NCBI GenBank assembly: GCA_017619375.1
Contig: JAFZSL010000075.1
Span: 124,001 to 188,000 of the forward strand
Origin: Prevotella sp.
Lineage (GTDB): Bacteria; Bacteroidota; Bacteroidia; Bacteroidales; Bacteroidaceae
Reading direction: 5' to 3'
DNA length: 64,000 nucleotides
Shown: one piece after another, positions 3,066-57,572 of the stretch
How the letters are laid out: the number at the start of each line of letters is the position of its first letter
Numbering within the stretch: position 1 is the first letter of the stretch
Made by a program: the position numbers and the translations under genes
The notes under the pieces: model-generated
Told to the model about the DNA's origin: nothing
What the model saw: the letters and a program-made list of their open reading frames with translations, nothing else
Databases searched by the model: none

Positions 3066-4651
3066 CGTTTGCGCTGGGTGAGGGTGACAATGGGTACGAG
3101 CATTTCTTCCATTGAGATGCCCCCGTGTTGGAAGGTGTCCTTGTAGTAGGACACATAATAGTTGTAGTTGTTAGGATAGGCGAAGAAGTCGGCTCCCGTG
3201 GCGAAGACATAGGTGGTGCTCAGGTTGGGGGCCGGCAGTTGGGCCTGCTTCGGGTTCTTCATCACGAACACTTCCTTGGGGTTGTAGCTTAGGTTCTTGC
3301 CCAACTTGTAACGGAGGTTGGTGTTGGTATTGCGGTCGCCGATGATCTTGATGGGTTTGGAGGCACGGATGCTGCCATGGTCGGTGGTCAGCACCACCTT
3401 GTAGTCTGACTGGGCCAGCGAGCGGAAGAGTTCTGACATCACGGAGTGACGGAACCAACTCAGGGTGATGGAGCGGTAGGCCGACTCGTTGTTGGCCAGT
3501 TCGCGCACCATCTTCGACTCGGTGCGGGCATGGGATAGCATGTCGATGAAATTGACCACCACCACGTTGAGGTCGTTCTTCTTCAGGTTGTTGAACTGCT
3601 GCATGAAGTTTTCCGCTCCGGCAGAATCGTTGATTTTATGGTAGGAGAACGTGTTGCGGCGGCGGAAGCGCTCCAATTGGGTCTTGATGAGCGGGCCTTC
3701 ATTGAGGTTCTTTCCTTCCTCCTCGTCCTCATCCACCCATAATTCGGGAAACATCTTCGCTATCTGGTCGGGCATGAGGCCGCTGAAGATGGCGTTGCGT
3801 GCGTATTGGGTGGCGGTGGGGAGGATGCTGCAATAGATGTCTTCTTCGATGTCGAACATATCGCCAATCTCTTGTGCCAGCACCCGCCATTGGTCGAAGC
3901 GGAAATTGTCGATGACGATGAGGAACACCTTCTCGCCTTTGTCGAGCAAAGGGAACACCTTGTTCTTGAAGATGTCGGGACTCATCATCGGACGCTCTCC
4001 GGCATCCCCCACCGTGCGGGAGAGGCCGCCATGTGCAGATGGGGCTGCCACCCAGTCGAGGTAGTTCTTCTTGATGAACTTGGCAAAGCCGTTGTTGGCA
4101 TCTTCCTTCTGCGTGCTCAACATCTCAGTCATGCTGCTGTCGGTGCTGCTTAACTCCAGTTCCCAGTGCACAAGCCTGCGGTAGATGTCGGTCCAGTCTT
4201 CCATTGTCTTGCAGTCGGAGATTTTCATGGAGATATCGAGGAAATTCTGCTGGTATCCACTTTGTGTCACCTCGGTGACAATCTCCTTGCGGTGGATGTT
4301 CTTCTTCAGGGTGAGAAGGATTTGATTGGGGTTGACGGGCTTGATGAGATAGTCGGCAATCTTGGAACCGATGGCTTGGTCCATGATGTTTTCCTCTTCA
4401 CTCTTGGTCACCATCACCACTGGAGTGGCTGGGGAGATTTCCTTGATTTTCGACAAGGTCTCAAGGCCGGAGAGTCCGGGCATCATCTCGTCGAGGAGCA
4501 CCAGGTCGAAGGTTTGTTGACGGCACTGGTCGATGGCGTCAGTGCCGTTGCTCACGGTGGTTACTTCGTAACCTTTCTTTTTCAAAAACAGGATGTGGGC
4601 TTTGAGCAGTTCTATCTCATCGTCCACCCATAATAATTGTCCGTTGTTCAT
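3062..4651 (-). CDS. porX: PorX: response regulator with PglZ-type phosphatase output domain
   Basis: This is a 529-residue soluble protein. Residues 1-120 form a CheY-like receiver with an acidic pocket at D10-D11, the phospho-acceptor D54 in LVLLDEMMPG and the conserved K104 in the IKPV motif. The C-terminal part is a PglZ domain of the alkaline phosphatase superfamily, with metal-site blocks FLIVIDNFRFDQW and TTDHGSI. In Porphyromonas gingivalis, PorX controls T9SS gene expression and secretion, and its PglZ domain hydrolyses oligonucleotides. The gene follows porW after 2 bp and overlaps tsaE. Its usual partners, the sensor PorY and the sigma factor SigP, are not in this window. Confidence 0.95.
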   Translation of the reverse strand: MNNGQLLWVDDEIELLKAHILFLKKKGYEVTTVSNGTDAIDQCRQQTFDLVLLDEMMPGLSGLETLSKIKEISPATPVVMVTKSEEENIMDQAIGSKIADYLIKPVNPNQILLTLKKNIHRKEIVTEVTQSGYQQNFLDISMKISDCKTMEDWTDIYRRLVHWELELSSTDSSMTEMLSTQKEDANNGFAKFIKKNYLDWVAAPSAHGGLSRTVGDAGERPMMSPDIFKNKVFPLLDKGEKVFLIVIDNFRFDQWRVLAQEIGDMFDIEEDIYCSILPTATQYARNAIFSGLMPDQIAKMFPELWVDEDEEEGKNLNEGPLIKTQLERFRRRNTFSYHKINDSAGAENFMQQFNNLKKNDLNVVVVNFIDMLSHARTESKMVRELANNESAYRSITLSWFRHSVMSELFRSLAQSDYKVVLTTDHGSIRASKPIKIIGDRNTNTNLRYKLGKNLSYNPKEVFVMKNPKQAQLPAPNLSTTYVFATGADFFAYPNNYNYYVSYYKDTFQHGGISMEEMLVPIVTLTQRKR

Positions 4652-8894: not shown

Positions 8895-10144
8895 GGTTCT
8901 TCCTCTATCATATAGCCGGCTTTCCGCATGTCTTCCCAGTAGCGGGGGTAGGACTTGCTCACCACCGAGGGGTCGTTGATGCGCAATCCGGGGAAGCAAG
9001 CACAAGCGGGGGCGAAGGCAAGGGCCATGCGATGGTCTTTGTAGGTGTCGATTACCGGGTGTATGTCGGCATCGCAGCGCTCGCCGTTCCATATGAGGTC
9101 GTTGTCGATGGTGCTGCTCACCACGAAACCGAGTTTCAGCATCTCACGTTTCAAGGCCTCTATGCGGTCGGTCTCCTTGATGCGTAGTGTGCTGAGTCCT
9201 TTGAAATGAAAGGGTATGCCGAGGAGGGCGCATGTCACCACGTAGGTCTGGGCGAGGTCGGGCTGATTGATGAAGCTGAACTCCAACCGTGGGAGTTTCA
9301 CCGCGTGGTGTTTCAGTGTCACTGTTGTGGGGACGCCTTTCTCTCTTACGCCAAAGGTGGTCTTCACGCCCAAGAGGCTGAAGATGTAGCGTGTGACGGA
9401 GTCGCCCTGGCGAGAACCATCGGTGAGCCCGTTGAGGCGGACCACTGACTCTTCGCTGCTCAGGCATAGCATTTCATACCAGTAGGAGGCTGCACTCCAG
9501 TCGTTCTCGATGAAATAAGGGGTGGGCCGATAGGGTTGTGGTGCCACCTCGATGGTGTCGGGGCCTGTCCACTCCACTTTTGCACCGAAGTCGCGCATCG
9601 TGCAGAGGGTCAAGTCGATATATGGGCGTGAGATGATGTTGTCGGTGAGGTGTAGTTCCATGCCGTTTCGCATTGTGGCACCGGCAATCAGTAGAGCGGA
9701 GATGAATTGCGAACTGACGTTGCCTGCCACGTCGATGCGTCCCCCATCAAGGTGGCGCCCACGGATGCGAAGAGGAGGATAGCCTTCTTCGCCGACATAA
9801 TCGATATCGGCACCCAACTGCCGCAATGCATCGACGAGGATGCCTATGGGACGATGGCGCATGCGTTCCGTGCCGGTGAGCACATGCTCGCCATGGTCGG
9901 TCACGGATAGGTATGCGGTCATGAAGCGCATGGCGGTGCCGGCGGCCTTGATGTCGATGGTGGGGGGCATGTCTTGAAGGGCACGGATGATGACGGTGGT
10001 ATCGTCGCAGTCGGACAAGTTAGAGGGCCATTCTGTGCTGCCGGAGAGGGCTTGCATCACCAAAGCACGGTTGCTGATGCTTTTGGAGGAGGGCAGGTCG
10101 ATGGTGGTTTCGATGTGCGTCGGAGCACTTATCTTGTATCGCAT
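8891..10144 (-). CDS. aroA: 3-phosphoshikimate 1-carboxyvinyltransferase (EPSP synthase)
   Basis: This 417-residue cytoplasmic enzyme joins phosphoenolpyruvate to shikimate-3-phosphate in the chorismate pathway. Family landmarks are the N-terminal SKSISNRAL block (S3P binding), GTAMRF, SRPYIDLT, KETDRIEALKREM and DHRMALAFA near the end. The length is typical for Bacteroidota. A consensus promoter lies about 100 bp upstream and may drive the whole minus-strand run down to tsaE. The stop overlaps the start of the small membrane gene. Confidence 0.97.
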   Translation of the reverse strand: MRYKISAPTHIETTIDLPSSKSISNRALVMQALSGSTEWPSNLSDCDDTTVIIRALQDMPPTIDIKAAGTAMRFMTAYLSVTDHGEHVLTGTERMRHRPIGILVDALRQLGADIDYVGEEGYPPLRIRGRHLDGGRIDVAGNVSSQFISALLIAGATMRNGMELHLTDNIISRPYIDLTLCTMRDFGAKVEWTGPDTIEVAPQPYRPTPYFIENDWSAASYWYEMLCLSSEESVVRLNGLTDGSRQGDSVTRYIFSLLGVKTTFGVREKGVPTTVTLKHHAVKLPRLEFSFINQPDLAQTYVVTCALLGIPFHFKGLSTLRIKETDRIEALKREMLKLGFVVSSTIDNDLIWNGERCDADIHPVIDTYKDHRMALAFAPACACFPGLRINDPSVVSKSYPRYWEDMRKAGYMIEEEP

Positions 10145-10239
10145 GTGTTTACATTTCGGTTAGGTGTTCGATGGATGGAAATCTCTTGGCTTTCCACAAG
10201 GGTGAATTATTGATTCCCCACGTCTTGCCAATCGGATTG

Positions 10240-10271: not shown

Positions 10272-10591
10272 AAAAATGATGATTTTAATGATTATATACA
10301 TTCATCTGTTTACATCTGTTTAAAATGTCCTCTTGAAGTTGTCAGAATGGCTCTGCATCGTTTTGGAGACAACACGGGACAAGAAGAGGCGACAAATGAC
10401 AAAAGATGCTTCCCATATCTGTTTTCGGTTCTTTCGGCTATTTCGTGTTCGGATTTTCGTGGTTCATTGATGTTGGCCATGTTGTTATGGTGTTGTTCAT
10501 TTTGTTTTTAAGAGCAATAGGAGTATTTCGGTTTTTCAATCTTTTCAATGTCTTTGGTTTCCCCTCCCGTCATGAAAAAAACGAGAAAAAG

Positions 10592-42382: not shown

Positions 42383-43183
42383 ATGAAGAAAATTTTCGTA
42401 CCCTTGGTAGCCATCTTGGCAATCATGTTCATGAATAGTTGCGAAACAAGCAAGCAAGTGCCTTATATGCAGAACATTGACAGCATCAGCCTTGCTGCAT
42501 CGCAGTATCTCTTCGACGCAAGAATCAAACCGAAGGATATCTTGCACATCACAGTCCACACAACAGACCCAGCTGCTGCTGCTCCTTTCAACCTGACCGT
42601 GTCGAGAAGGTTGAGTGCTCAAGGTGACCTCTCCAGTGGTGGTGGTTCACTTCAAGGATACCTCGTCGAAAACGACGGCACCATCAATTTCCCCGTTATC
42701 GGAAGAATTGCTGTTGTCGGACTTACAAGAAAGGAATGCGAAACCTTGATTGAGGAAAAGTTGACCCCTTATCTGGCAAAGACCGAAAAGCCTGTGGTCA
42801 CTGTCAATATGTCGAGTTTCAGGGTAACACTCCTGGGTGATTTCAGCAGTCCGAGGGTGGTTGCCGTGACGACGGAGAAAATGAGTATTCTCGAAGCCCT
42901 TGCCTCGGGTGGCGACCTCACTCTCTATGGTAAGAGGCAGAATGTGCTGCTTATCAGGGAGGATGCAACCGGCAAGAAGACAGTGCACCGCATCGACCTC
43001 ACGGATGCCAATTTCATCAACTCACCTTATTATTATCTGCAACAGAACGACATCATCTATGTGGAGCCTAATGCCACCAAGGCAAAGAACTCCGCTTTGG
43101 GACAGTCGGTCACCATATGGTTCTCGTTCATCAGCATCGCCACTTCCGTGGCTTCATTGCTCGTGAACATTCTCAGGGACTAA
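42383..43183 (+). CDS. Polysaccharide export outer-membrane lipoprotein (Wza-like)
   Basis: This is a 266-residue lipoprotein with lipobox FMNSC (Cys20). The Poly_export domain follows (ARIKPKDILHITVHTTDP, then GYLVENDGTINFPVIGRIAVVG), then SLBB-like beta-grasp repeats (VTLLGDFSSPRVVAVTTEKM). A C-terminal hydrophobic helix (VTIWFSFISIATSVASLLVNI) could cross the outer membrane, as Wza does. Members export capsule or exopolysaccharide together with an inner-membrane Wzc-type kinase; none is encoded next to it. A GT2 gene lies 2.3 kb downstream, but no full capsule locus is visible. Confidence 0.92.
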   Translation: MKKIFVPLVAILAIMFMNSCETSKQVPYMQNIDSISLAASQYLFDARIKPKDILHITVHTTDPAAAAPFNLTVSRRLSAQGDLSSGGGSLQGYLVENDGTINFPVIGRIAVVGLTRKECETLIEEKLTPYLAKTEKPVVTVNMSSFRVTLLGDFSSPRVVAVTTEKMSILEALASGGDLTLYGKRQNVLLIREDATGKKTVHRIDLTDANFINSPYYYLQQNDIIYVEPNATKAKNSALGQSVTIWFSFISIATSVASLLVNILRD

Positions 43184-46585: not shown

Positions 46586-46837
46586 TTATTTCTGCTCAGC
46601 GTTTGCGGAATCAGCAGGAGCAGCCTCAGCCTCGGGAGCAGCCTCAGTAGCAGCAGCTTCGGGAGCAGCAGCCTCAGGAGCAGCCTCAACGTTTGCGGAA
46701 TCAGCAGGAGCAGCTTCAGCCTCGGGAGCAGCAGTCTCGGTCTCAGGAGCCTCGGGAGCAGCTTCTTTCTTCTCTTCAGTACAAGCAGCAAATGTCAGAG
46801 CTGCAGCAGCTACGAACATAAAAATAACTTTCTTCAT
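46586..46837 (-). CDS. Small Ala/Glu/Pro-rich lipoprotein
   Basis: This is an 83-residue protein: a signal peptide with lipobox FAAC (Cys19), then TEEKKEAAPEAPETE and a tail made almost entirely of A, E, P and a repeated PADSAN unit. An extended, disordered chain on the envelope is likely. The ATG at 46837 is chosen over an upstream in-frame start because it begins the signal peptide (MKKVIFMFVAAAAL). A promoter lies about 50 bp upstream. No function is known. Confidence 0.85.
   Translation of the reverse strand: MKKVIFMFVAAAALTFAACTEEKKEAAPEAPETETAAPEAEAAPADSANVEAAPEAAAPEAAATEAAPEAEAAPADSANAEQK
46601..46732 (-). repeat. 42-bp direct repeat inside the Ala/Glu-rich lipoprotein gene
   Basis: Two 42-bp copies (46601-46642 and 46691-46732) differ at one base and encode the PADSAN-containing unit. 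Shorter GAGCAGCCTC words fill the space between. Copy number could vary by slippage. Confidence 0.85.
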
Positions 46838-46885
46838 TTTCTTGCTTTTTTTAAATCTGTAAAACATTTGTTTATTAAAACGCTG

Positions 46886-46915
46886 CAAAGGTAGGCATTT
46901 TTTCGCAATCACAAA
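46886..46915 (-). promoter_or_regulatory. Promoter of the Ala/Glu-rich lipoprotein gene
   Basis: Minus-strand TTTG (46912-46915) and TACCTTTG (46886-46893) are separated by 18 bp, slightly short of the usual spacing. The leader would be about 40-45 nt. Confidence 0.6.
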
Positions 46916-47033: not shown

Positions 47034-48527
47034 TTATTTCCACACTTCTTGGATGGCGTTGCCGATGCAGCAGTCGGGCATTTGGATATGGGCCATGGCA
47101 CAGACGGTGGCAGCGATGTCGGTCATGTAGGTAGGTGTACTGGTGCTGCCTTCCTTCACGTTCCATCCCATGAAGATGAGGGGGATGTGTGAGTCATCGG
47201 GATTCCAAGTGCCATGCGAGGTGCCCTTGTAGGTGGGGGTGACGGTGCCGTGCATGTGGCTGCCTTGCAACACCACCATGATGTCACCTGTGCGTAAACG
47301 ATGGTAGCCGTTGATGATGCGTTCGCGAAGGAATTGTGGCACGGTGGAGTTTTGCACGTCCTCATAATCCACCACGTAGACGAACTGCGGGTCTTCGCGG
47401 AGTATTTCCACGGCTTTCTTTTTCACTTGTGTGTAGTCGAGATTGTGTGAGGTGATGAACTCACGGTCAAGGTAGATGCGGCAGTCCATCATCTCTTTGA
47501 TGTAGTTGCCTGCTACCCCGAAGCAGCGGGCAAGGGCGTTGTTCACTTGTTCTCTCACGGGTCTCGATGAATAGCCTCCTCCAGGAAGTTTGTGCTCGTT
47601 GAGGAAATTGCCGTTGTGCACCGCACCATGGTCTGCAGTGAGGAAAAGGAGGTAGTTGCCGCTGCCGATTTCACGGTCGAGTACACGGAGGAAATGAGCC
47701 AGGTCCTTGTCGAGTTGCATGTACACGTCGCGGTTCTCCTTGCCCCGAGTGCTATAAGTATGGCCGATAGCGTCTGTGGAGGAAATGCTCACTGCGAGCA
47801 TGTCGGTGACTTCGTGCTTGCCCAGGTGCTCGTTTTTCAACACTTCCTCTGCCATCTTGAAGGTCATGGTCACGCCTTTGTTGGAGGTCTTGATGTCGAA
47901 GCCGGACTCAGTGTGGTTGTTCCGGTTGAAATTCTCCACCCAGCGCGGTAGTTTTTCCATGTAATAACTACTGGTGATGAAATGCCCGGCTTTCGTGTCC
48001 CACCAATAGGCGGCGTCGGCGGCATGGCCGGCGGGAAGGATGGCGGCACGGTCCTTCAGGGCCACGCCGATGACTTTCGACTTGAAGTCAGTGGCCAGTT
48101 TCAGTTGGTCGCCTATCGTGTTGGCCAGAAGGTTGCGAGGGGAATTTTGCCCGTCGCTGTTTTCTGGTGAACTGCCCACGGCGAATACCGTGGTGTCGGA
48201 AACGCTGGTCACGTTCCGACCGTTGAGAAGGAAGTTGTTGCCGGCGATGCCGGTGAATGCTGGCACCGATCCGGTGTAGACGCATGAGTGGCCTATGGCT
48301 GTCACGGTGGGTACGTAGTTGATCATTGTGTTCTCGCAACTGAAGCCGTTGTCCAACAGGCGTTTCAGTCCGCCGGTGTCGTATTGGTCGTAATAATAAT
48401 ACAGGTAGTCCCATCTCATTTGGTCTACTACGATGCCTACTATGAGGCGTGGACGTTTGACTTCACTTCCACACCAGGCTGTCATGCATGCAAGTGTGAG
48501 AAGGAGGGTTGTGATAGCTTTTTTCAT
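47034..48527 (-). CDS. PafA-like alkaline phosphatase, exported
   Basis: This 497-residue protein of the alkaline phosphatase/phosphodiesterase superfamily has a signal peptide (MKKAITTLLLTLACMTAWCG). Metal and nucleophile blocks are GIVVDQMRWDYL, PTVTAIGH (residues 73-80, with the expected nucleophilic Thr), MLAVSISSTDAIGHTYS and LFLTADHGAV, then GTSHGTWNPDDSHIPLIFMG. This order matches the PafA-type monoesterases of Bacteroidota, which release phosphate in the periplasm. The longer frame adds 29 residues upstream of the signal peptide and is rejected. A -7-like TATATTTG lies at 48550-48557. Confidence 0.92.
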   Translation of the reverse strand: MKKAITTLLLTLACMTAWCGSEVKRPRLIVGIVVDQMRWDYLYYYYDQYDTGGLKRLLDNGFSCENTMINYVPTVTAIGHSCVYTGSVPAFTGIAGNNFLLNGRNVTSVSDTTVFAVGSSPENSDGQNSPRNLLANTIGDQLKLATDFKSKVIGVALKDRAAILPAGHAADAAYWWDTKAGHFITSSYYMEKLPRWVENFNRNNHTESGFDIKTSNKGVTMTFKMAEEVLKNEHLGKHEVTDMLAVSISSTDAIGHTYSTRGKENRDVYMQLDKDLAHFLRVLDREIGSGNYLLFLTADHGAVHNGNFLNEHKLPGGGYSSRPVREQVNNALARCFGVAGNYIKEMMDCRIYLDREFITSHNLDYTQVKKKAVEILREDPQFVYVVDYEDVQNSTVPQFLRERIINGYHRLRTGDIMVVLQGSHMHGTVTPTYKGTSHGTWNPDDSHIPLIFMGWNVKEGSTSTPTYMTDIAATVCAMAHIQMPDCCIGNAIQEVWK

Positions 48528-48619
48528 AATTGTAGTATGGTTGTGACTGCAAATATAGTTAATTTTATAGTCAATAAAGGAGAAAAATGGGAAAAAAGTG
48601 ATTTTTTCTGCCACTTTGT

Positions 48620-48655: not shown

Positions 48656-49005
48656 AAATTGATTGGAAAATAAAAAACACATCTTTTGACAGTACATTCA
48701 TGCATATGGAGGGTGTTCCCGTCCATCATGTCATCGATGAGTCACGACAGTCATGAACCGTTGCCTTTGGCTTCTGGTGAGATGTTGTTATTGTGATTGG
48801 ATAATTCTCATAGATATATTCATATTTTACTCGACAGGATAATTTGAGTGTTAGTTTCAGGGTATATTAAGAAAATTTTCAATGCTGATCTTTTAATTCT
48901 GTGACACCCAAAGATTCCTCCACCGTGAGGTGCAGGAATTGGCGGGGGTCATTTTCTTAGAAACGCAGAAGGCGCGCACCTTTCCAAGTGCGCGCCTTCT
49001 ACATT
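48656..49005 (+). ncRNA. Candidate small RNA or small-peptide transcript
   Basis: From the promoter at 48620-48650 to the hairpin at 48967-49000, a transcript of about 350 nt is expected. It contains a hairpin with a GTGA (GNRA) loop (48914-48939: ATTCCT, C, CACC, GTGA, GGTG, C, AGGAAT), a sign of structured RNA, and a 22-codon frame (48728-48796). It lacks the signature ends of tmRNA, RNase P RNA or SRP RNA. The segment 48528-49018 has no other gene. Its family is unknown to me. Confidence 0.45.
48967..49000. terminator. Strong terminator hairpin after the PqqD gene
   Basis: Perfect 13-bp arms (AGAAGGCGCGCAC at 48967-48979 and its inverse at 48988-49000) surround an 8-nt loop. It ends the minus-strand cassette and would also stop the plus-strand candidate RNA. 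Confidence 0.85.
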
Positions 49006-49018
49006 GTATTTCTCGTGA

Positions 49019-49294
49019 TTATGGCTCTACTATGGCTGCAGTAATCCATGTTTTCACGAGTTCTTCCATATGTGGACGCAGTTCGTCAGCACTGGGGGCG
49101 TCCTCGTAATTGTCTTGGATCAGCTTCACCATGTCGTCGATGGTGAATTCCTTGCCGCTGACGTTCTCCCAAAGGAACGCGGACGTCTCGTTCATGCTGA
49201 TTACGTTGGTGTAGTCGATGTTCTCTTTTCCTTCGGCCACCATGATTTTTTCACCGCAGATCTCACGAAGGACGAATCCTGTCTTTGCTTTCAT
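49019..49294 (-). CDS. PqqD-family peptide-binding protein
   Basis: This 91-residue protein has the PqqD/RiPP-recognition-element layout. An N-terminal beta-rich part (GFVLREICGEKIMVAEGKEN) is followed by ISMNETSAFLWENVSG, then a helical part (FTIDDMVKLIQDNYEDA) ending in LVKTWITAAIVEP. Such proteins bind leader peptides and present them to modifying enzymes. It is the last gene of a cassette with a signal-peptidase-like gene (6 bp upstream) and an HPr-kinase-like gene. No radical-SAM or other classic partner is visible. Confidence 0.9.
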   Translation of the reverse strand: MKAKTGFVLREICGEKIMVAEGKENIDYTNVISMNETSAFLWENVSGKEFTIDDMVKLIQDNYEDAPSADELRPHMEELVKTWITAAIVEP

Positions 49295-49300
49295 TTCTTT

Positions 49301-49960
49301 CTATTTTTTAATTGATGATGATTTCTTGTGTTCGAAATTCTTAACTATTTCATTGATTTCTCTACTTTTCAAAGGCTTGTATGGCTTGAGTTTGAAAATG
49401 TTCAGCCAGACGTAGCGATAAAAAGCCAGCAGCCATCGGCGTATGGGACGCAGGGTCACCCAAAACCACGAATACGTTTTCCATTTCCAGCCATCTGTCC
49501 AGTCTGCCTTGTGGCGTCCATTGCGGATGAAGCCGACAACGCTTGCACGGATGTCTGAGACGGTGCAGTATTCGCAACTTAAGTTGCCATCGCCCATGAG
49601 GGTGACGTCCCCATTCTCTATTTTCATCACCCGGTGCATCACATAGTGGCCAGGTTCGATTTCTGCCAGTACCGGGTCTCCGACTTTCACCTCGCCAGGG
49701 GAAGAGAAGATGCCGAGGTCGCGGTTGCTTTCCAGGAAGGGGCGCATGCTGTTGCCTCGGAGGCGCAGCGTGCACGTCTTTCCTTTATTGATATCCTCAA
49801 TGAGAAGTGGGAATAGGATTTCATTGGGGATGTCCATGTTGTTTTCTTTCCTGTCTACCTCTCTGTTTCCACCGTCATGCTGGCGAACGCGGTTGAGGAA
49901 CTTTTCAAGAATACGTCTCAGAATATTTTGTTTCTTGACTTTGGACATGTCAGACTTCAT
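49301..49960 (-). CDS. S24/S26-like peptidase with Ser/His dyad
   Basis: The protein has 219 residues from the ATG at 49960, which overlaps the stop of the HPr-kinase-like gene (ATGA). The peptidase motif LRGNSMRPFL has the Ser nucleophile (S71), and VMHRVMKI (H109) has His where many family members have Lys, as in SipW/Sec11-type signal peptidases. GDPVLAEIEPGHY and MGDGNLSCE are other conserved blocks. A hydrophobic C-terminal segment (SWFWVTLRPIRRWLLAFYRY) could reach the membrane. In this cassette it may cut a leader or an exported peptide. The N-terminal ~40 residues are charged and variable. Confidence 0.85.
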   Translation of the reverse strand: MKSDMSKVKKQNILRRILEKFLNRVRQHDGGNREVDRKENNMDIPNEILFPLLIEDINKGKTCTLRLRGNSMRPFLESNRDLGIFSSPGEVKVGDPVLAEIEPGHYVMHRVMKIENGDVTLMGDGNLSCEYCTVSDIRASVVGFIRNGRHKADWTDGWKWKTYSWFWVTLRPIRRWLLAFYRYVWLNIFKLKPYKPLKSREINEIVKNFEHKKSSSIKK

Positions 49961-50859
49961 GATTCTTTGACTGCTATGGCGTCGTGGCATACCTCTGCGG
50001 CTTCTCTGTCGGGAAGGCAGTGGAGGATGTATATTTTTGTTGTCTCGACTATTTTTGACACGGTGTCACCCATGCGATGATACATCTTGTCCCATTTCAA
50101 TCCGGAGCATGAGGGTAGCACGGAGGTGAAACCTTCGATGGGAGTAAGGCGTTCCACCCAGTTGTGGTCATCGCGGTCTATGCGTGTCAATGCACCCAAT
50201 CTTGCCTTGATGTTCCTGTAGCATGGGGTCTTGCCACTCCAAGGACTGCCAAAGATGTATGCCTTTCCGTCGATGATGCGGATGATGGGGTTGTCGTCGT
50301 TCATCAAATCGCAGTCAGGTATGTAGCGTAGCCAGTTGCTCACTTGGGTGGACTTGCCTGTTCCGCTCGCGGCGTGGAAAGCATACCCATAGCCGTTTTT
50401 CCTGACCAAGGAGGCATGTATGAGCAATGTGTCTTTGAAACTACCTGCAATGGAATAACCCATCATCATGGCATTGTGGATGCCGTAGCTTCGCATGTCG
50501 AAATTGCCTTTGAGGGCGCATTTTATTTCATTACCGTATTCGCTGGCTTGCAGCAGGCAGCATTCTATGCCTTTCAAGTCTTTGAAAATGAATTGGTGAC
50601 CTCCACCTATCATCTCGTCGACGATGACGTGGCCGTTGCCGGTTTCAAAATCACGTATTCTCTCTCTTTCGTTTTTTCCCAAAGGTTTGAGGTCGTCGTC
50701 GACGGTGAGTTCATACAACAGTTCGTGTCCTTCGGCGCTGTCCACGAGAAAAGGATAGCACGACCGAAGCAGGTTCATGTTGTTATGGGTGGTGTCGAGG
50801 AAATTGACTTTCACATAGTGCTCACCTATGCAGAAAAACCTTGTTTCTGGATTGTTCAT
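49957..50859 (-). CDS. HPr-kinase-like P-loop protein
   Basis: This 300-residue protein has a C-terminal half like HPr kinase/phosphorylase: LLIHASLVRKNGYGYAFHAA, then Walker A SGTGKST (165-171), a short LMNDDNPI acidic block and FGSPWSGKTPCYRN. The N-terminal ~140 residues differ from true HprK. Homologues of this type, near PqqD-like proteins, occur in lasso-peptide and other peptide-modification clusters as peptide kinases; the substrate here is unknown. It overlaps the peptidase gene by ATGA and lies 24 bp after the secreted-protein gene. Confidence 0.85.
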   Translation of the reverse strand: MNNPETRFFCIGEHYVKVNFLDTTHNNMNLLRSCYPFLVDSAEGHELLYELTVDDDLKPLGKNERERIRDFETGNGHVIVDEMIGGGHQFIFKDLKGIECCLLQASEYGNEIKCALKGNFDMRSYGIHNAMMMGYSIAGSFKDTLLIHASLVRKNGYGYAFHAASGTGKSTQVSNWLRYIPDCDLMNDDNPIIRIIDGKAYIFGSPWSGKTPCYRNIKARLGALTRIDRDDHNWVERLTPIEGFTSVLPSCSGLKWDKMYHRMGDTVSKIVETTKIYILHCLPDREAAEVCHDAIAVKES

Positions 50860-50883
50860 TGTCTATTTTTGGATGAATTGGTT

Positions 50884-51447
50884 TCAATGGCGTGGAGGAA
50901 CGGTGGGAGGGAGGTCGTTGTCGTTGTTGTTTCCCTTGCGTGTTGATTCCAGTTTGCCTGTCTTTTTCTTCTTCTTCGACTTCTCTGCACGCTTGACTGC
51001 CTTTTCGTCAATCACAAGCTCTTGCTCTTGTATGTTGTCTGAGGGCTCTGCATGGAATTTGAATTCCTCTTCGTCGATCAAGCGGATGTCGAAATGCTTG
51101 GGGTGCTTTTTGCTGCCATTGAGTTTCTTGCGCATCTTGGCCATCTTTTTCAAAATGTCCTTTTCATTTGTCGCATAGGTCACAAAACACGTGCGTGAGG
51201 TCATGCCTTGTTGCGCAAGGTAGTTGCTCAGTTGGCTGGAGTAATTGCCTCGCTTTACCAGGAAGCCGGTCTTGTCTGCCACCCAGGCGCTGTCGACGAT
51301 TTGAATCTCTGTGATGTACACCACGGAGTCGATGAAGGAGGCTGAAGTGCCGAAGATGTAAATGGGCGTGCATCGTTCCTTCCCTTGCACATGCATGCAG
51401 CATAATGCCAAGGAACAAAGGATGAATGCGAAAAGTTTTTTTCTCAT
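50884..51447 (-). CDS. Secreted protein of the HprK-PqqD cassette, unknown family
   Basis: This is a 187-residue protein with a signal peptide (MRKKLFAFILCSLALCCMHVQ). The body has alternating beta/alpha segments (PIYIFGTSASFIDSVVYITE, TCFVTYATNEKDILKKMAKM), then a long Lys/Glu-rich tail (KRAEKSKKKKK) ending in PTVPPRH. I know no domain. It is the first gene of the cassette with the kinase-like, peptidase-like and PqqD genes, 106 bp after the primary sigma factor gene. It could be a target or partner of these, but this is inference. Confidence 0.75.
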   Translation of the reverse strand: MRKKLFAFILCSLALCCMHVQGKERCTPIYIFGTSASFIDSVVYITEIQIVDSAWVADKTGFLVKRGNYSSQLSNYLAQQGMTSRTCFVTYATNEKDILKKMAKMRKKLNGSKKHPKHFDIRLIDEEEFKFHAEPSDNIQEQELVIDEKAVKRAEKSKKKKKTGKLESTRKGNNNDNDLPPTVPPRH

Positions 51448-51553: not shown

Positions 51554-52420
51554 TCATTGGCCGAGGTAGGTCTTCAGGAGTTTGTTCTTCGTGTTGTGGC
51601 GAAGCCGGCGGATGGCTTTTTCCTTGATTTGCCTGACACGCTCCCTTGTAAGGCCGAATTTCTCTCCTATTTCCTCCAACGTCATCTCGGGTTGGTTGAT
51701 GCCGAAGAAGGCTTCTATGATGCGACGCTCGCGCTCGCTCAGCGTCAGCAAGGCACGGTTGATTTCGTTTCGAAGAGACTCCATCACCAGTTCCGTGTCT
51801 GCCATGGGGGAGTCGGCGTTCGGCAGGATGTCGAGCAGGCTGTTGCCCTCTTCTCCTTCCACGAAAGGAGCGTCAACGGAGATGTGCCGTGTGTTCACTT
51901 TCAGGGCGTCCTCTATCTTGTCTTCGGGCAAGTCCACGCTGGCTGCTATCTCGTCGATGCTTGGCCGGCGTTCGTGCTCCTGCTCGAATTGGTTGAGGAT
52001 CTTGTTGATCTTGTTCACCGAGCCCACTTGGTTGAGGGGGAGCCTCACGATGCGGCTCTGCTCGGCGATGGCTTGCAGTATGCTTTGCCGAATCCACCAG
52101 ACTGCATATGAGATGAACTTGAACCCACGTGTCTCGTCGAATTTCTCGGCGGCTTTGATGAGTCCCAGATTGCCCTCGTTGATGAGGTCTGGAAGGCTGA
52201 GCCCGTGGTTTTGATACTGCTTGGCTACAGAGACAACGAAACGAAGGTTTGCACGGGTGAGCTTCTCCAAGGCTTGGCGGTCACCTTTCCTGATGCGTTG
52301 GGCAAGTTCCACTTCCTCTTCCACGGAAATTAACTCTTCCCGGCCTATTTCTTGCAGATACTTGTCGAGGGAGGCGCTCTCTCGATTCGTAATCGATTGC
52401 GTGATTTTCAGTTGTCTCAT
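51554..52420 (-). CDS. rpoD: Primary sigma factor RpoD (Bacteroidota type)
   Basis: This 288-residue sigma-70 protein lacks the long region 1.1 found in Proteobacteria, as is usual for Bacteroidota. Region 1.2 starts in [16 protein letters not shown]; region 2 has [20 protein letters not shown] ([16 protein letters not shown]) and [19 protein letters not shown] (core binding, -7 melting). Region 3 and a region 4 helix-turn-helix ([20 protein letters not shown]) complete it. It should recognise the TTTG/TAnnTTTG promoters seen across this window. A consensus promoter lies directly upstream. Confidence 0.96.
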
Positions 52421-53989: not shown

Positions 53990-54422
53990 TTTGATGTATG
54001 TGATTGATGTATACGCTTGTCTCATATGGGGAGAGGGCGGCATATGGTGATGTTGCCCGGCCTCCCGTAATGCGAATGCAAATATAGACCCAAAATTTGT
54101 TAATTGATGATTTCCATGATAATATTTGTCCTCTTTTAACAAACATTCAAGTAGTGTTAACTATCATATGGATGTTTTAAATACTATTTTACGTTTCTTC
54201 ACGCCATGTAGGGCATGACTATGGTGACATTTTGTCATCATCACGGACGTGGGCAGATGACATGTGGCTTCCTGGCATTCTTGTGTTGCTGGTTTCATGG
54301 TCTTCAAAAACAATCAAAGCGCCATTCAAAAGTAATTTTTCTCGTTTTTTTACCACGGTTTCATTTTTTTTCCGTATTTTTGTCGGTTGAAAACATTCAA
54401 AATTAAAAAAAGGTATCTTCAG
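53990..54422. other. Divergent intergenic region, htrA / C10 protease gene
   Basis: This is 433 bp. A minus-strand TATATTTG (54079-54086), without a good -33, may serve htrA. A plus-strand TATTTTTG (54375-54382), preceded by a T-run, may serve the C10 gene. The middle is AT-rich and I see no gene or RNA in it. Confidence 0.5.
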
Positions 54423-57400
54423 ATGAGGAAATTTGTTCTTTTCATCTTGCTCTGCTTGTGGGTGTCTTCCGCACTTTTGGCTGGGCCGGTAACTCAGCGC
54501 CGGGCCATGGAAATAGCTGCTCGTTTGGCTGTCGATGACGCATCTTCGCAACTTGATTGCAAATGGGCGGCAACAGAGTCGATGCCTTATTATGCGTTTG
54601 ACATTGGTGAAGAGAAAGGCTTTGTCCTCGTGGCAGGTGATGACCGCGTTTCTCCCATTCTGGGCTATTCTGACAAAGGTCATTTCGATTGGAATGAGAT
54701 GCCTCCTGCCTTGCGTGCATGGTTGGAAGCATATGGCGACCACCTTTCTCGAACTGGTGACAATGAAAATGGCGAGCCAATGCCATCCCCTTCAAGGGTG
54801 ATGGAGGTGCCACGCAATGCAATAGCCCCCCTGCTCTCAACGAATTGGAGCCAACAGGAGCCTTATTACAATAGCTGTCCCTATGTTGGTGGCGAATTTT
54901 GCAATACCGGTTGCGTGGCGACGGCGATGGCTCAGTTGATATATTACTTTCGAGCAAGTTGTCCGAAGACGCTTCAGGCAGAAATCGAAGGTTACACTTG
55001 CACCACGAATTGGCCCAACTTTGGATATGTTTCCGTCCCAAGTGTGCCAGAGGGGACTCCCATAGACTTCGACCATATGCTCGACAATTATATGGGAAGG
55101 GAGTCTGAAGTGGAGAAAAAAGCGGTTAGCGACTTCATGTACTATTGCGCCGCATCCATCGAAACAGAGTTCGTGCCACCCTCGACAGGTTCTTCTTCTT
55201 CAGCAAATTCTTATGACATTCCGTCTGCCTTGAAGAACTATTTCGGCTTTTCCAAGGATTGTTGTTTCAAGGAGCGCAGCGCCTATTCCATCGCCCAATG
55301 GGAGGAGATGATTTACAATGAAGTGAAGGCGGGAAGACCTGTCGTTTATCGAGGACGGTCGGAAAACTATTCTCATGCCTTCCTCATTGATGGATATGAT
55401 GGCGACATGCTCTACCACGTCAATTGGGGATGGGGTGGACTTTACAATGGCTATTACAACCTTTCCGTGCTCTCTTCAGTCGAGGGAAGTACGTCGAATG
55501 GATTCACCATGACGCAAGGCGCGCTTTTGGGAGCACAACCTGCTTATGAAGGGGATATGCTCCCAACCCTTTCTGCCTACGATTACACCCTCTCAGGCTT
55601 GACAATTGGATACACGGTGGCTAATTACACAGATGGGGCAGATGACTTCATGTTTGGCATCGCTGCTGTCATGGAGGATGAAACGATTCACTTGCTCAAG
55701 AGTACAGCCTTCTATTTTTCGATGCCGGACAGGACCACCCGCCCCATCTTGCTCACCTTGAACAAGTCGGACGTGAATTTGCCGAAGGGCGAATATGCAC
55801 TCAAACCCGTTTACAAACGCTATTCAGAGGAAACATGGAGGCTTGCCGACTGTTCTGACGAGTATCTCTTCCACCTTTCATGGGATGGTTCCACGCTGTC
55901 GCTTTCTTTGAATTCTCCTTCAAAGGGCAGGATATTCACCGCTGACGCATTCTCCTTCCCCGCCAATGCGGTCAAGGGGTCGAGAATACCTATCACCGCC
56001 ACCCTTACCTGCAGTGGGGGTGAGTATGGGGAAACGGTGTATCTCTTTGCCAGCACCACTTCTACGGCATCCACCTATGCCAGCAGGACCGGAGTGTATC
56101 TCAAGGATGGGGAGCAATGCGAAGTCACTCTCTCATTCACCCCTTCAACTACGGGCAAATACAAAGTGTGGATTGCCACGGATACACAAGGGACGATGTC
56201 TATTGGCGGATGCACGGTGGATGTGTCCGAATCCTCCAGCAATGGTGAATTATCGGTCGTGGGTTATCAGGTGGACAATGCTGTGAAGTCGGGAGAGTGG
56301 AACACGGTCTATGGGAAGATTCTCAAGGGGACCATCACATTGAAAAACATTGGGGCGTCCCTCTATTCCGACATCATCACGCTATGGTTGATGAAGGGTT
56401 CCACCAAGTCTTATTACCAGGGGTCGTCGAGCAACAAGATGCTTGTCACCCTTGCACCAGGCGAGACCATGACGATGAATTATGCCTACGATGAGGGAGA
56501 GACCGGGAAATATTACCAGTTGTGGCTGATGAAGGGCAATGCGCTCATCACCAATGGAAAAGTGAGATTTTTCCAACTCGTTCCTGGCATCACCACTTAT
56601 GAGGCTACGGGAAATTCAAAGAGCATCGCTCCCAACAGTGTTTTCAACGTGCCCGACGCGGTGTGTGCTGTTGACCTGGAGGGTGCCGGAGTGACAAAGT
56701 TGACTCCCAATGGCAATCCCAACACCATCTATTTCTTAGGAGAAAGTGATGTCGTCCCTTCGGGACTAAGTGACAATAACTTGGTGAAGTCAGGTGTGGC
56801 GGAAAAGGTCACTCTGGCTGATGGACATGCATTCTATACACCTCGCACTTTTTATGCCAATACCATCTCTTACACTCGGACGCCTCAGCGTCAGACCTCC
56901 GGGAAGGGAGGTTGGGAGACCATCGTCCTGCCTTTCGCCGTGCAAGAGGTGACCAATGTCACAGACAACAAGACCATAGACTGGTTCCATAGTTCGGTAG
57001 ACTCCAACAAGGACTTCTGGCTCAAGGAATATGCATTGCAAGACGTCGAGACGGGCGTGGCTTATTTCGACCATGTCGAGACGTTCCTACCGCACATCCC
57101 TTACCTCATCGCTGTGCCATCTTCCAAATGGGGGGCGACGCACGACCTCACCGGCAAGCAGTTGAGATTCTCTGCCAAAGGCGTGGAGGTCACCGCTGAT
57201 GCCCGACTGCTGTCAAGGACAAGTGTCTATCGTTTTGAAGGCACCTATGTGGAGAGGATGGTGGAGGATATGTTTGTGCTCAACGAACAAGGCACATCGT
57301 TTGTCAGGACGGGAAGTGCGTCGCTCATGCCTTTCAGGGCGTTTTTCGCTGAAAGCAATCCCGGCGGCACGCATGCCAATATCATCATTGGCGACTTTGA

Positions 57401-57572
57401 TGAAGCCACTTCCATCAAGACATTGCCTGCCATGGAGGAAGAGACCGTGGACATCCATACCCTGTCGGGCGTGAAGGTGCGAACGGTAAAGGTCAGGAAC
57501 GGAAATGTGGACACCGAGGGGCTGCCCAAGGGAATCTATCTGGTGCGTGGCAAGAAAATCATCGTGAGGTGA
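54423..57572 (+). CDS. C10 cysteine protease (streptopain family), T9SS cargo
   Basis: This is a 1049-residue secreted protein. A signal peptide (MRKFVLFILLCLWVSSALLA) is followed by a Spi-type propeptide (AFDIGEEKGFVLVAGDDRVS), then the mature C10 domain with catalytic Cys164 (FCNTGCVATAMAQ) and His318 (NYSHAFLIDGYDG), plus YHVNWGWGG. The rest consists of beta-sandwich-like modules. The end (VDIHTLSGVKVRTVKV, then LPKGIYLVRGKKIIVR) is a T9SS type A-like tail. Related enzymes (interpain, SpeB) cut host proteins. The longer frame adds 12 residues and is less likely. Confidence 0.94.
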   Translation: MRKFVLFILLCLWVSSALLAGPVTQRRAMEIAARLAVDDASSQLDCKWAATESMPYYAFDIGEEKGFVLVAGDDRVSPILGYSDKGHFDWNEMPPALRAWLEAYGDHLSRTGDNENGEPMPSPSRVMEVPRNAIAPLLSTNWSQQEPYYNSCPYVGGEFCNTGCVATAMAQLIYYFRASCPKTLQAEIEGYTCTTNWPNFGYVSVPSVPEGTPIDFDHMLDNYMGRESEVEKKAVSDFMYYCAASIETEFVPPSTGSSSSANSYDIPSALKNYFGFSKDCCFKERSAYSIAQWEEMIYNEVKAGRPVVYRGRSENYSHAFLIDGYDGDMLYHVNWGWGGLYNGYYNLSVLSSVEGSTSNGFTMTQGALLGAQPAYEGDMLPTLSAYDYTLSGLTIGYTVANYTDGADDFMFGIAAVMEDETIHLLKSTAFYFSMPDRTTRPILLTLNKSDVNLPKGEYALKPVYKRYSEETWRLADCSDEYLFHLSWDGSTLSLSLNSPSKGRIFTADAFSFPANAVKGSRIPITATLTCSGGEYGETVYLFASTTSTASTYASRTGVYLKDGEQCEVTLSFTPSTTGKYKVWIATDTQGTMSIGGCTVDVSESSSNGELSVVGYQVDNAVKSGEWNTVYGKILKGTITLKNIGASLYSDIITLWLMKGSTKSYYQGSSSNKMLVTLAPGETMTMNYAYDEGETGKYYQLWLMKGNALITNGKVRFFQLVPGITTYEATGNSKSIAPNSVFNVPDAVCAVDLEGAGVTKLTPNGNPNTIYFLGESDVVPSGLSDNNLVKSGVAEKVTLADGHAFYTPRTFYANTISYTRTPQRQTSGKGGWETIVLPFAVQEVTNVTDNKTIDWFHSSVDSNKDFWLKEYALQDVETGVAYFDHVETFLPHIPYLIAVPSSKWGATHDLTGKQLRFSAKGVEVTADARLLSRTSVYRFEGTYVERMVEDMFVLNEQGTSFVRTGSASLMPFRAFFAESNPGGTHANIIIGDFDEATSIKTLPAMEEETVDIHTLSGVKVRTVKVRNGNVDTEGLPKGIYLVRGKKIIVR

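Follow-up and report, generated by a model that had tools for sequence, protein, structure and literature searches.

Four closely spaced genes on the minus strand of a 64 kb stretch of Prevotella sp. DNA (contig JAFZSL010000075.1, positions 124,001 to 188,000; hereafter the window) encode a secreted protein, an HprK-like kinase, a serine peptidase and a PqqD-like protein, here termed SEC, HPRK, S24 and PQQD. The question raised by this locus is what such a set of genes acts upon. Computational sequence analysis of the window, of the source genome and of a family set of 201 genomes suggests that HPRK, S24 and PQQD probably form a module resembling the pathway for linear polyphosphorylated peptides (LPP), which matures in trans a set of dispersed small peptides that are paired with surface proteins. 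An earlier note had described the locus as a peptide-modifying and export-processing module. A peptide-modifying, leader-cleaving function, predicted by analogy, is the best reading of the genes, since the available text of PMC13381572 describes a pathway for a ribosomally synthesised and post-translationally modified peptide (RiPP) with the same three parts.

LPP are a RiPP family from Bacillota (Popov et al. 2026, PMC13381572). In the available text of that paper, the core of the system comprises a SipW-like peptidase (LppS), a RiPP recognition element (RRE; LppB), an HprK-like kinase (LppK), a nucleoside triphosphate (NTP) transferase and an MsbA-like transporter. LppB binds the YxxP leader of the precursors, a core serine is phosphorylated by LppK, and LppS, acting with LppB, removes the leader, as tested in Bacillus. 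As predicted from sequence, the three parts of the present module match their LPP counterparts one by one.

Genes of the locus and their predicted activities

The arrangement of SEC, HPRK, S24 and PQQD at 49019-51447, closed by a strong hairpin, was confirmed. The features are as follows.

50884 to 51447, minus strand: SEC, a secreted protein of a family without a name; often found with the kinase module and with rpoD, but separable from them
49957 to 50859, minus strand: HPRK, an HprK/PEPCK-fold kinase, predicted peptide serine kinase (P-loop, motifs, fold and profile tests)
49301 to 49960, minus strand: S24, an S24/S26-fold serine peptidase, predicted leader peptidase (invariant Ser/His/Asp, fold tests)
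49019 to 49294, minus strand: PQQD, a stand-alone PqqD-type RRE, predicted leader-binding protein (PF05402 and its relative TfuB1)
48962 to 49005, minus strand: hairpin, likely terminator closing the unit
51554 to 52420, minus strand: rpoD, primary sigma factor, named by sequence; neighbour of SEC, context only

HPRK possesses a P-loop, SGTGKST, at residues 165-171 that is invariant in 16 of 16 aligned rows, in addition to NDDNP and SPWSGK motifs, and fold tests supported a PEPCK/HprK fold. No curated profile cut-off was reached by HPRK, the score against TIGR04352 (HprK-related kinase A system) being 20.8 bits for a cut-off of 200, and comparison of its sequence with solved structures yielded nothing useful. 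The S24 sequence likewise gave no match to solved structures. Its Ser81, His119 and Asp134 (numbered from the open reading frame (ORF) start at 49990) are invariant in 16/16 rows, which upholds the original call of a Ser-His peptidase, and no N-terminal transmembrane helix was apparent by eye. PQQD matches PF05402 with 40.5 bits, and its closest solved relative is TfuB1, a lasso B1 protein (6jx3, E 0.0017); the solved LppB structure (9x8z) was absent from the results of the PQQD profile search, which tells nothing either way. The HprK-like and PqqD-like assignments made previously thus survive profile and fold tests.

Conservation of the module

Twenty close loci were compared; their genomes are named and, judged by title, all belong to Bacteroidales and most to Prevotellaceae. 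HPRK, S24 and PQQD occur together in all 20. Linkage was looser among hand-picked wider loci (18/30 and 5/8). HPRK is present in 164 of the 201 family genomes, and relatives were found in 52 of 295 genomes sampled across the order, the weakest at E near 0.001.

The module might alternatively represent the decaying remnant of a lasso-like or SynChlorMet-like cluster whose cyclase or radical SAM partner has been lost, a possibility raised by weak matches to TIGR04248 and TIGR04249 (ScmD and ScmC). The invariant active-site residues, the intact three-gene unit of the close loci and the retention of HPRK across the family indicate conservation and not decay, and such an origin is considered very unlikely.

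In distant loci the module is accompanied by an NTP_transf_5 protein (PF14907) and an ATP-binding cassette (ABC) exporter, in some cases also by polysaccharide-export genes, and small ORFs with an early YxxP (chosen by their Y..P pattern) lie beside it. An ABC transporter also adjoins the module of the same-genus genome G366 (locus L119). Within the 64 kb window, tblastn at E ≤ 1e-3 detected no NTP transferase (one query) and, with the L119 transporter as query, no ABC transporter, the sole match being to polysaccharide export. A Wza-type polysaccharide-export protein (PF02563) is encoded at 42383-43183 on the plus strand, approximately 6 kb from the module. A candidate MsbA-like exporter, 38% identical to the module-linked ABC protein of G366, lies elsewhere in the source genome at C13:18311-19906. 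The statement that the locus does not match a classic cluster consequently holds for the window alone, as expected parts exist elsewhere in the form of the dispersed YxxP peptides described below and the transporter at the G366 module.

A rival candidate substrate is SEC itself or, in some relatives, a clostripain-like lipoprotein encoded between SEC and HPRK. The order rpoD-SEC-HPRK-S24-PQQD, with rpoD and SEC ahead of the module, was found in 19 of the 20 close loci, the remaining one (L020) reaching a contig end. SEC is present in 195/201 family genomes, including all 164 with HPRK, yet it is also present in 31 of the 37 genomes without an HPRK match. Among the 105 genomes listed for both proteins, SEC and HPRK are adjacent in 44 and separated by one gene in 24 (68 in total), and are not close in 37; six of the latter have the two genes far apart on one contig and 31 have them on separate contigs, where contig breaks may hide neighbours. 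Loci L015, L017 and L018 carry a large ORF between SEC and HPRK, and the one that was scanned (L017) encodes a Peptidase_C11 protein.

The possibility that SEC is a plain bystander of rpoD was rejected, because five loci (L140, L141, L143, L147 and L303) retain SEC together with HPRK in stretches that yielded no rpoD. Across the 13 SEC loci checked outside the close set, rpoD lies beside SEC in seven and was not found in the stretch in six, and in five of these six HPRK is beside SEC or one gene away. These associations favour action of the module on SEC. Against it, SEC persists in most HPRK-less genomes, and in the same-genus genomes G366 and G399 the adjacent SEC and rpoD genes (L157, L158) and the module (L119, L120) are at separate places. 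Furthermore, SEC occurs in just four of the 295 order-wide genomes, these being the four family members of that sample, while HPRK relatives extend well beyond them, and by eye SEC has no YxxP leader. Modification of SEC or of the intervening lipoprotein in place of the dispersed peptides is therefore regarded as rather unlikely. The four-gene unit proposed at the outset stands in part: HPRK, S24 and PQQD are kept together, and SEC is separable. We regard HPRK-S24-PQQD as the core, which SEC often accompanies inside one family.

In the window and its closer relatives (L001-L007, L009, L010 and L019) SEC ends in a fixed PPRH; this ending is missing in L008 as well as in the more distant loci L011-L018. 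Beyond the module hairpin, at 47034-48614 on the minus strand, the window encodes a type I phosphodiesterase/alkaline-phosphatase-type enzyme (PF01663), which also lies behind the hairpin in L001, L002, L005, L006 and L010. A short lipoprotein-like ORF follows at 46586-46912 (minus), its body composed almost entirely of Ala, Glu and Pro in near-repeats.

A dispersed family of YxxP peptides

A peptide profile was built from a seed of small ORFs picked by a Y..P pattern. The first search of the source genome gave 20 matches, 19 of them below E 0.1; with a profile that by then included the genome's own peptides, 22 small ORFs matched the MKKxYxxP profile at E ≤ 0.01. The peptides begin with MKKxYxxP or a near variant, followed by a hydrophobic-alternating stretch, an I/L-L/M pair and a variable body that is net acidic on average. 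A Trp lies within the last 12 residues in 14/21 of the source-genome peptides. Ser or Thr is found 18-20 residues past the Tyr in 32/33 peptides from other genomes and in only 10/21 from the source genome. A C-terminal S-x-W is present in 11/21 and 7/33 of source-genome and other peptides, respectively, and may recall the phosphorylated Ser of LppA in AQSNWK, although coincidence is possible. None of six peptides tested matched any Pfam or NCBIfam family. The C45 peptide, the single example checked at base level, is preceded by AGGAGG and followed by an inverted repeat.

A conserved small ORF within the window was considered as precursor and rejected, since the ORFs of the window scored no better than E 2 and 6.6 with the peptide profile.

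A further tandem pair of YxxP peptides and, close by, a third similar ORF were observed at L196:10687-11351 (C39 of the source genome), in the gap beside a radical SAM-SPASM protein.

Tailed proteins encoded ahead of the peptides

Of the 20 source-genome peptides first examined, 12 sit behind a protein of 390-1658 aa with a tail like KGVYIVNGKKVVIK, and eight have no tailed protein ahead. The peptide start lies 9-95 bp past the tailed protein, with one overlap of 4 bp, and most of the partner proteins have an apparent signal sequence by eye. C55 supplied a thirteenth pair, which neighbours S24 and an ABC exporter, giving 13 of 21 peptides examined.

A tail model (A8; 12 rows) constructed from the partner proteins themselves matched 112 protein ends in the source genome at E ≤ 0.1. 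With 112 tails, chance pairing would give under one pair; the binomial probability for 12/22 is 8e-13, with the gene number estimated at 3400 for the 4.26 Mb genome. In other genomes a tailed protein precedes the peptide in 17 of 29 loci, with gaps of -4 to 172 bp; these were the best-scoring loci and not a random selection, and the peptide was found in 28 of the 29, L221 being counted as a miss. Among 38 other genes of these loci, three carried the tail; some of the 38 run off the ends of the 3-kb stretches, which would hide any tail. Inspection of 18 of the 100 further tails in the source genome resolved 15 to an ORF, none with a peptide-family ORF behind it by eye, indicating that pairing is confined to some of the tailed proteins.

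The type IX translocon protein SprA is present in the source genome (2556 bits). The tails of the partner proteins look similar to the type IX sorting tail. Since none of eight partner proteins matched TIGR04183 (Por_Secre_tail) at E ≤ 0.01, the assignment of the tails draws on model A8 and its partial overlap with TIGR04183, for which 15 of 28 source-genome matches at E ≤ 1 share ends with A8 tails.

In the window itself, at 54387-57572 on the plus strand, a C10 (streptopain-type) cysteine peptidase with an Inhibitor_I69 prodomain ends in a type IX-like tail (TIGR04183 E 5.5e-4, below the cut-off).

Association between the module and the peptides

Across the 201 family genomes, peptides are present in 128 of 164 with HPRK compared with 9 of 37 without it, an association with an odds ratio of 11 (Fisher 1.3e-9) in a statistic that ignores the relatedness of the genomes. 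Within genus g2, ten HPRK-less genomes have no peptides; one of two genomes with HPRK has three and the other none.

Co-location was assessed using the 130 listed peptide matches outside G000, 123 of which are in genomes with a listed HPRK. Twelve of the 123 are no more than 10 kb from HPRK, one of them at 9,997 bp, where 0.8 would be expected, and eight of 119 remain after removal of the four seed genomes; the peptides within 10 kb occur in 12 related genomes. At two loci of genus g205 (L297, L298), a tailed protein and a peptide adjoin S24-HPRK-PQQD-ABC in convergent orientation, all of the pieces being at one place. The C55 locus of the source genome (L295) has a tailed protein and a peptide with S24 and ABC only.

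The peptides may also be genuine RiPP precursors that are served by modules at C55 or C1, leaving the window module with another, unseen substrate. In support of this, C55 possesses S24-ABC beside a tailed protein and peptide as well as an HPRK paralogue, and at C1 an S24-PqqD fusion accompanies two tandem peptides. Against this stand 58 genomes whose sole HPRK match is beside SEC or one gene off: 52 of them carry peptides (mean 4.2, maximum 15), which favours the window-type module over the others. Service by C55 or C1 is accordingly judged unlikely.

The neighbourhoods of these other modules were as follows. At L026:7159-11005 (C55), the HPRK paralogue, a radical SAM protein, a PqqD-like protein and an NTP_transf_5 protein stand in a row as a RiPP-type cluster. 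At L025:9220-9978 (C1), an S24/S26-like peptidase is fused to a PqqD domain (PF00717 and PF05402) and has an apparent lipoprotein signal, directly downstream of the two tandem YxxP peptides (small ORFs 10058-10186 and 10398-10529); an exported peptidase-RRE fusion, as C1 suggests, would be odd. At L027:7404-9409 (C52), a radical SAM-SPASM enzyme with a PqqD domain lies beside a 234-aa ORF containing many CGSS(Y/F)xCAGGGG-like repeats, which makes this a RiPP cluster of its own with a precursor of repetitive sequence.

Several observations weigh against maturation of the dispersed peptides by the window module. No source-genome peptide lies beside it, and of the 22 matches at E ≤ 0.01 none of the 20 that were listed falls inside the window. 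No peptide-profile match below E 0.9 was obtained at the module loci of G366 (L119) or G399 (L120), where candidates beside the module were rejected at best E values of 0.93 and 3.4, respectively. Peptide matches are missing from 36 of the 164 HPRK genomes, including the same-genus G366 and G441; conversely, nine HPRK-less genomes carry peptides, and the source genome itself holds the other candidate modules at C55 and C1. The conservation of YxxP stems in part from selection, the seed ORFs having been chosen by a Y..P pattern, and the LPP motif HQxIxFETxxS was not seen in the peptides. Our own reading of the TfuB1 alignment places His75 of the window and L001 PQQD proteins at the position where the leader Tyr would be bound by an Asp, the residue that occupies this position in the other 14 of 16 rows. 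Finally, only two of ten TIGR04183 matches above the cut-off coincide with A8 tails, so the tails may be a variant type IX tail or another signal.

Predicted pathway

In the pathway proposed for the module, PQQD would capture, by their YxxP leader, small peptides whose genes lie in other parts of the genome, in the manner of LppB and lasso B1 proteins. A peptide Ser, located either close to the leader end or within the C-terminal SxW, would be phosphorylated by HPRK, and cleavage by S24 in the vicinity of the ILxxS segment would release the leader. An MsbA-like exporter encoded elsewhere, for which C13:18311-19906 is the candidate, might then carry out the linear, acidic phosphopeptide, which would act with its partner surface protein once outside. 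These steps of leader binding, phosphorylation and cleavage are modelled on the tested LPP pathway, whereas action in trans and the surface partnership are drawn from gene order and counts. Any role of the peptide in display, or in attaching the protein to a polymer at the surface, is speculative.

A broader proposal is put forward more tentatively: a single RRE-kinase-peptidase module may mature approximately twenty scattered phosphopeptides, most in an operon with their own type IX surface protein and active with it at the cell surface, making RiPP maturation a standing service of surface display in Bacteroidota. If true, the RiPP chemistry of 2026 would extend from Bacillota to a main gut and rumen phylum, and its logic would change, one to three precursors in a single cluster giving way to a trans-acting module with many dispersed precursors. 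Small modified peptides would be tied to type IX-secreted surface proteins, and RiPP mining by clusters would have reason to seek precursors far from the enzymes.

Comparison with known systems

The listings of the literature searches contain no account, for Bacteroidota, of such a module or of a pairing between YxxP peptides and type IX cargo. A survey of Bacteroidales RiPPs (PMC10352776) deals, in its available passages, with radical SAM, YcaO and peptidase-containing ABC transporter (PCAT) clusters, and neither S24 nor nucleotidyltransferase appears in its available text.

The SynChlorMet cassette (TIGR04248/TIGR04249) shares with the module a PqqD-like and HprK-like pair. The scores are far under the cut-offs, at 19.7 against 125 bits for ScmC (TIGR04249) and 22.6 against 100 bits for ScmD (TIGR04248), and, unlike SynChlorMet, the genes directly flanking the window module are not radical SAM enzymes by eye. 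Paeninodin-type lasso clusters, as described in the available text of PMC13381572, resemble the module in having an HprK-like kinase acting on a peptide Ser, a discrete PqqD-type B1 protein and a [Y/W]xxP leader. They differ in their peptidase, lasso B2 being a cysteine peptidase whereas that of the module is S24/S26-like.

The likeness to LPP, again as far as the available text of PMC13381572 describes them, is more extensive and includes a Ser/His/Asp leader peptidase of the SpI/SipW type, a discrete PqqD-type RRE, an HprK-like kinase and a YxxP leader, here on dispersed peptides. Relatives of the module are also accompanied by an NTP transferase and an ABC exporter and, in some loci, by polysaccharide-export genes. 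The differences concern host, layout and distribution. LPPs are called restricted to Bacillota, and the string 'Bacteroid' is absent from the main text of PMC13381572; the present host belongs to Bacteroidota. LPP precursors, one to three in number, belong to one cluster and have the motif YxxPxVLxHQxIxFETxxS, whereas those proposed here are scattered, paired with large tailed proteins and differ in the leader motif downstream of YxxP. The spread of LPP is patchy, in contrast to the presence of HPRK throughout much of the family. The window locus is also without an NTP transferase, a transporter and a YxxPxVLxHQxIxFETxxS precursor, and because these three locus-level features are lacking the module is not filed as a member of LPP. 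By analogy, the module is predicted to work like the LPP pathway but is a variant outside LPP proper.

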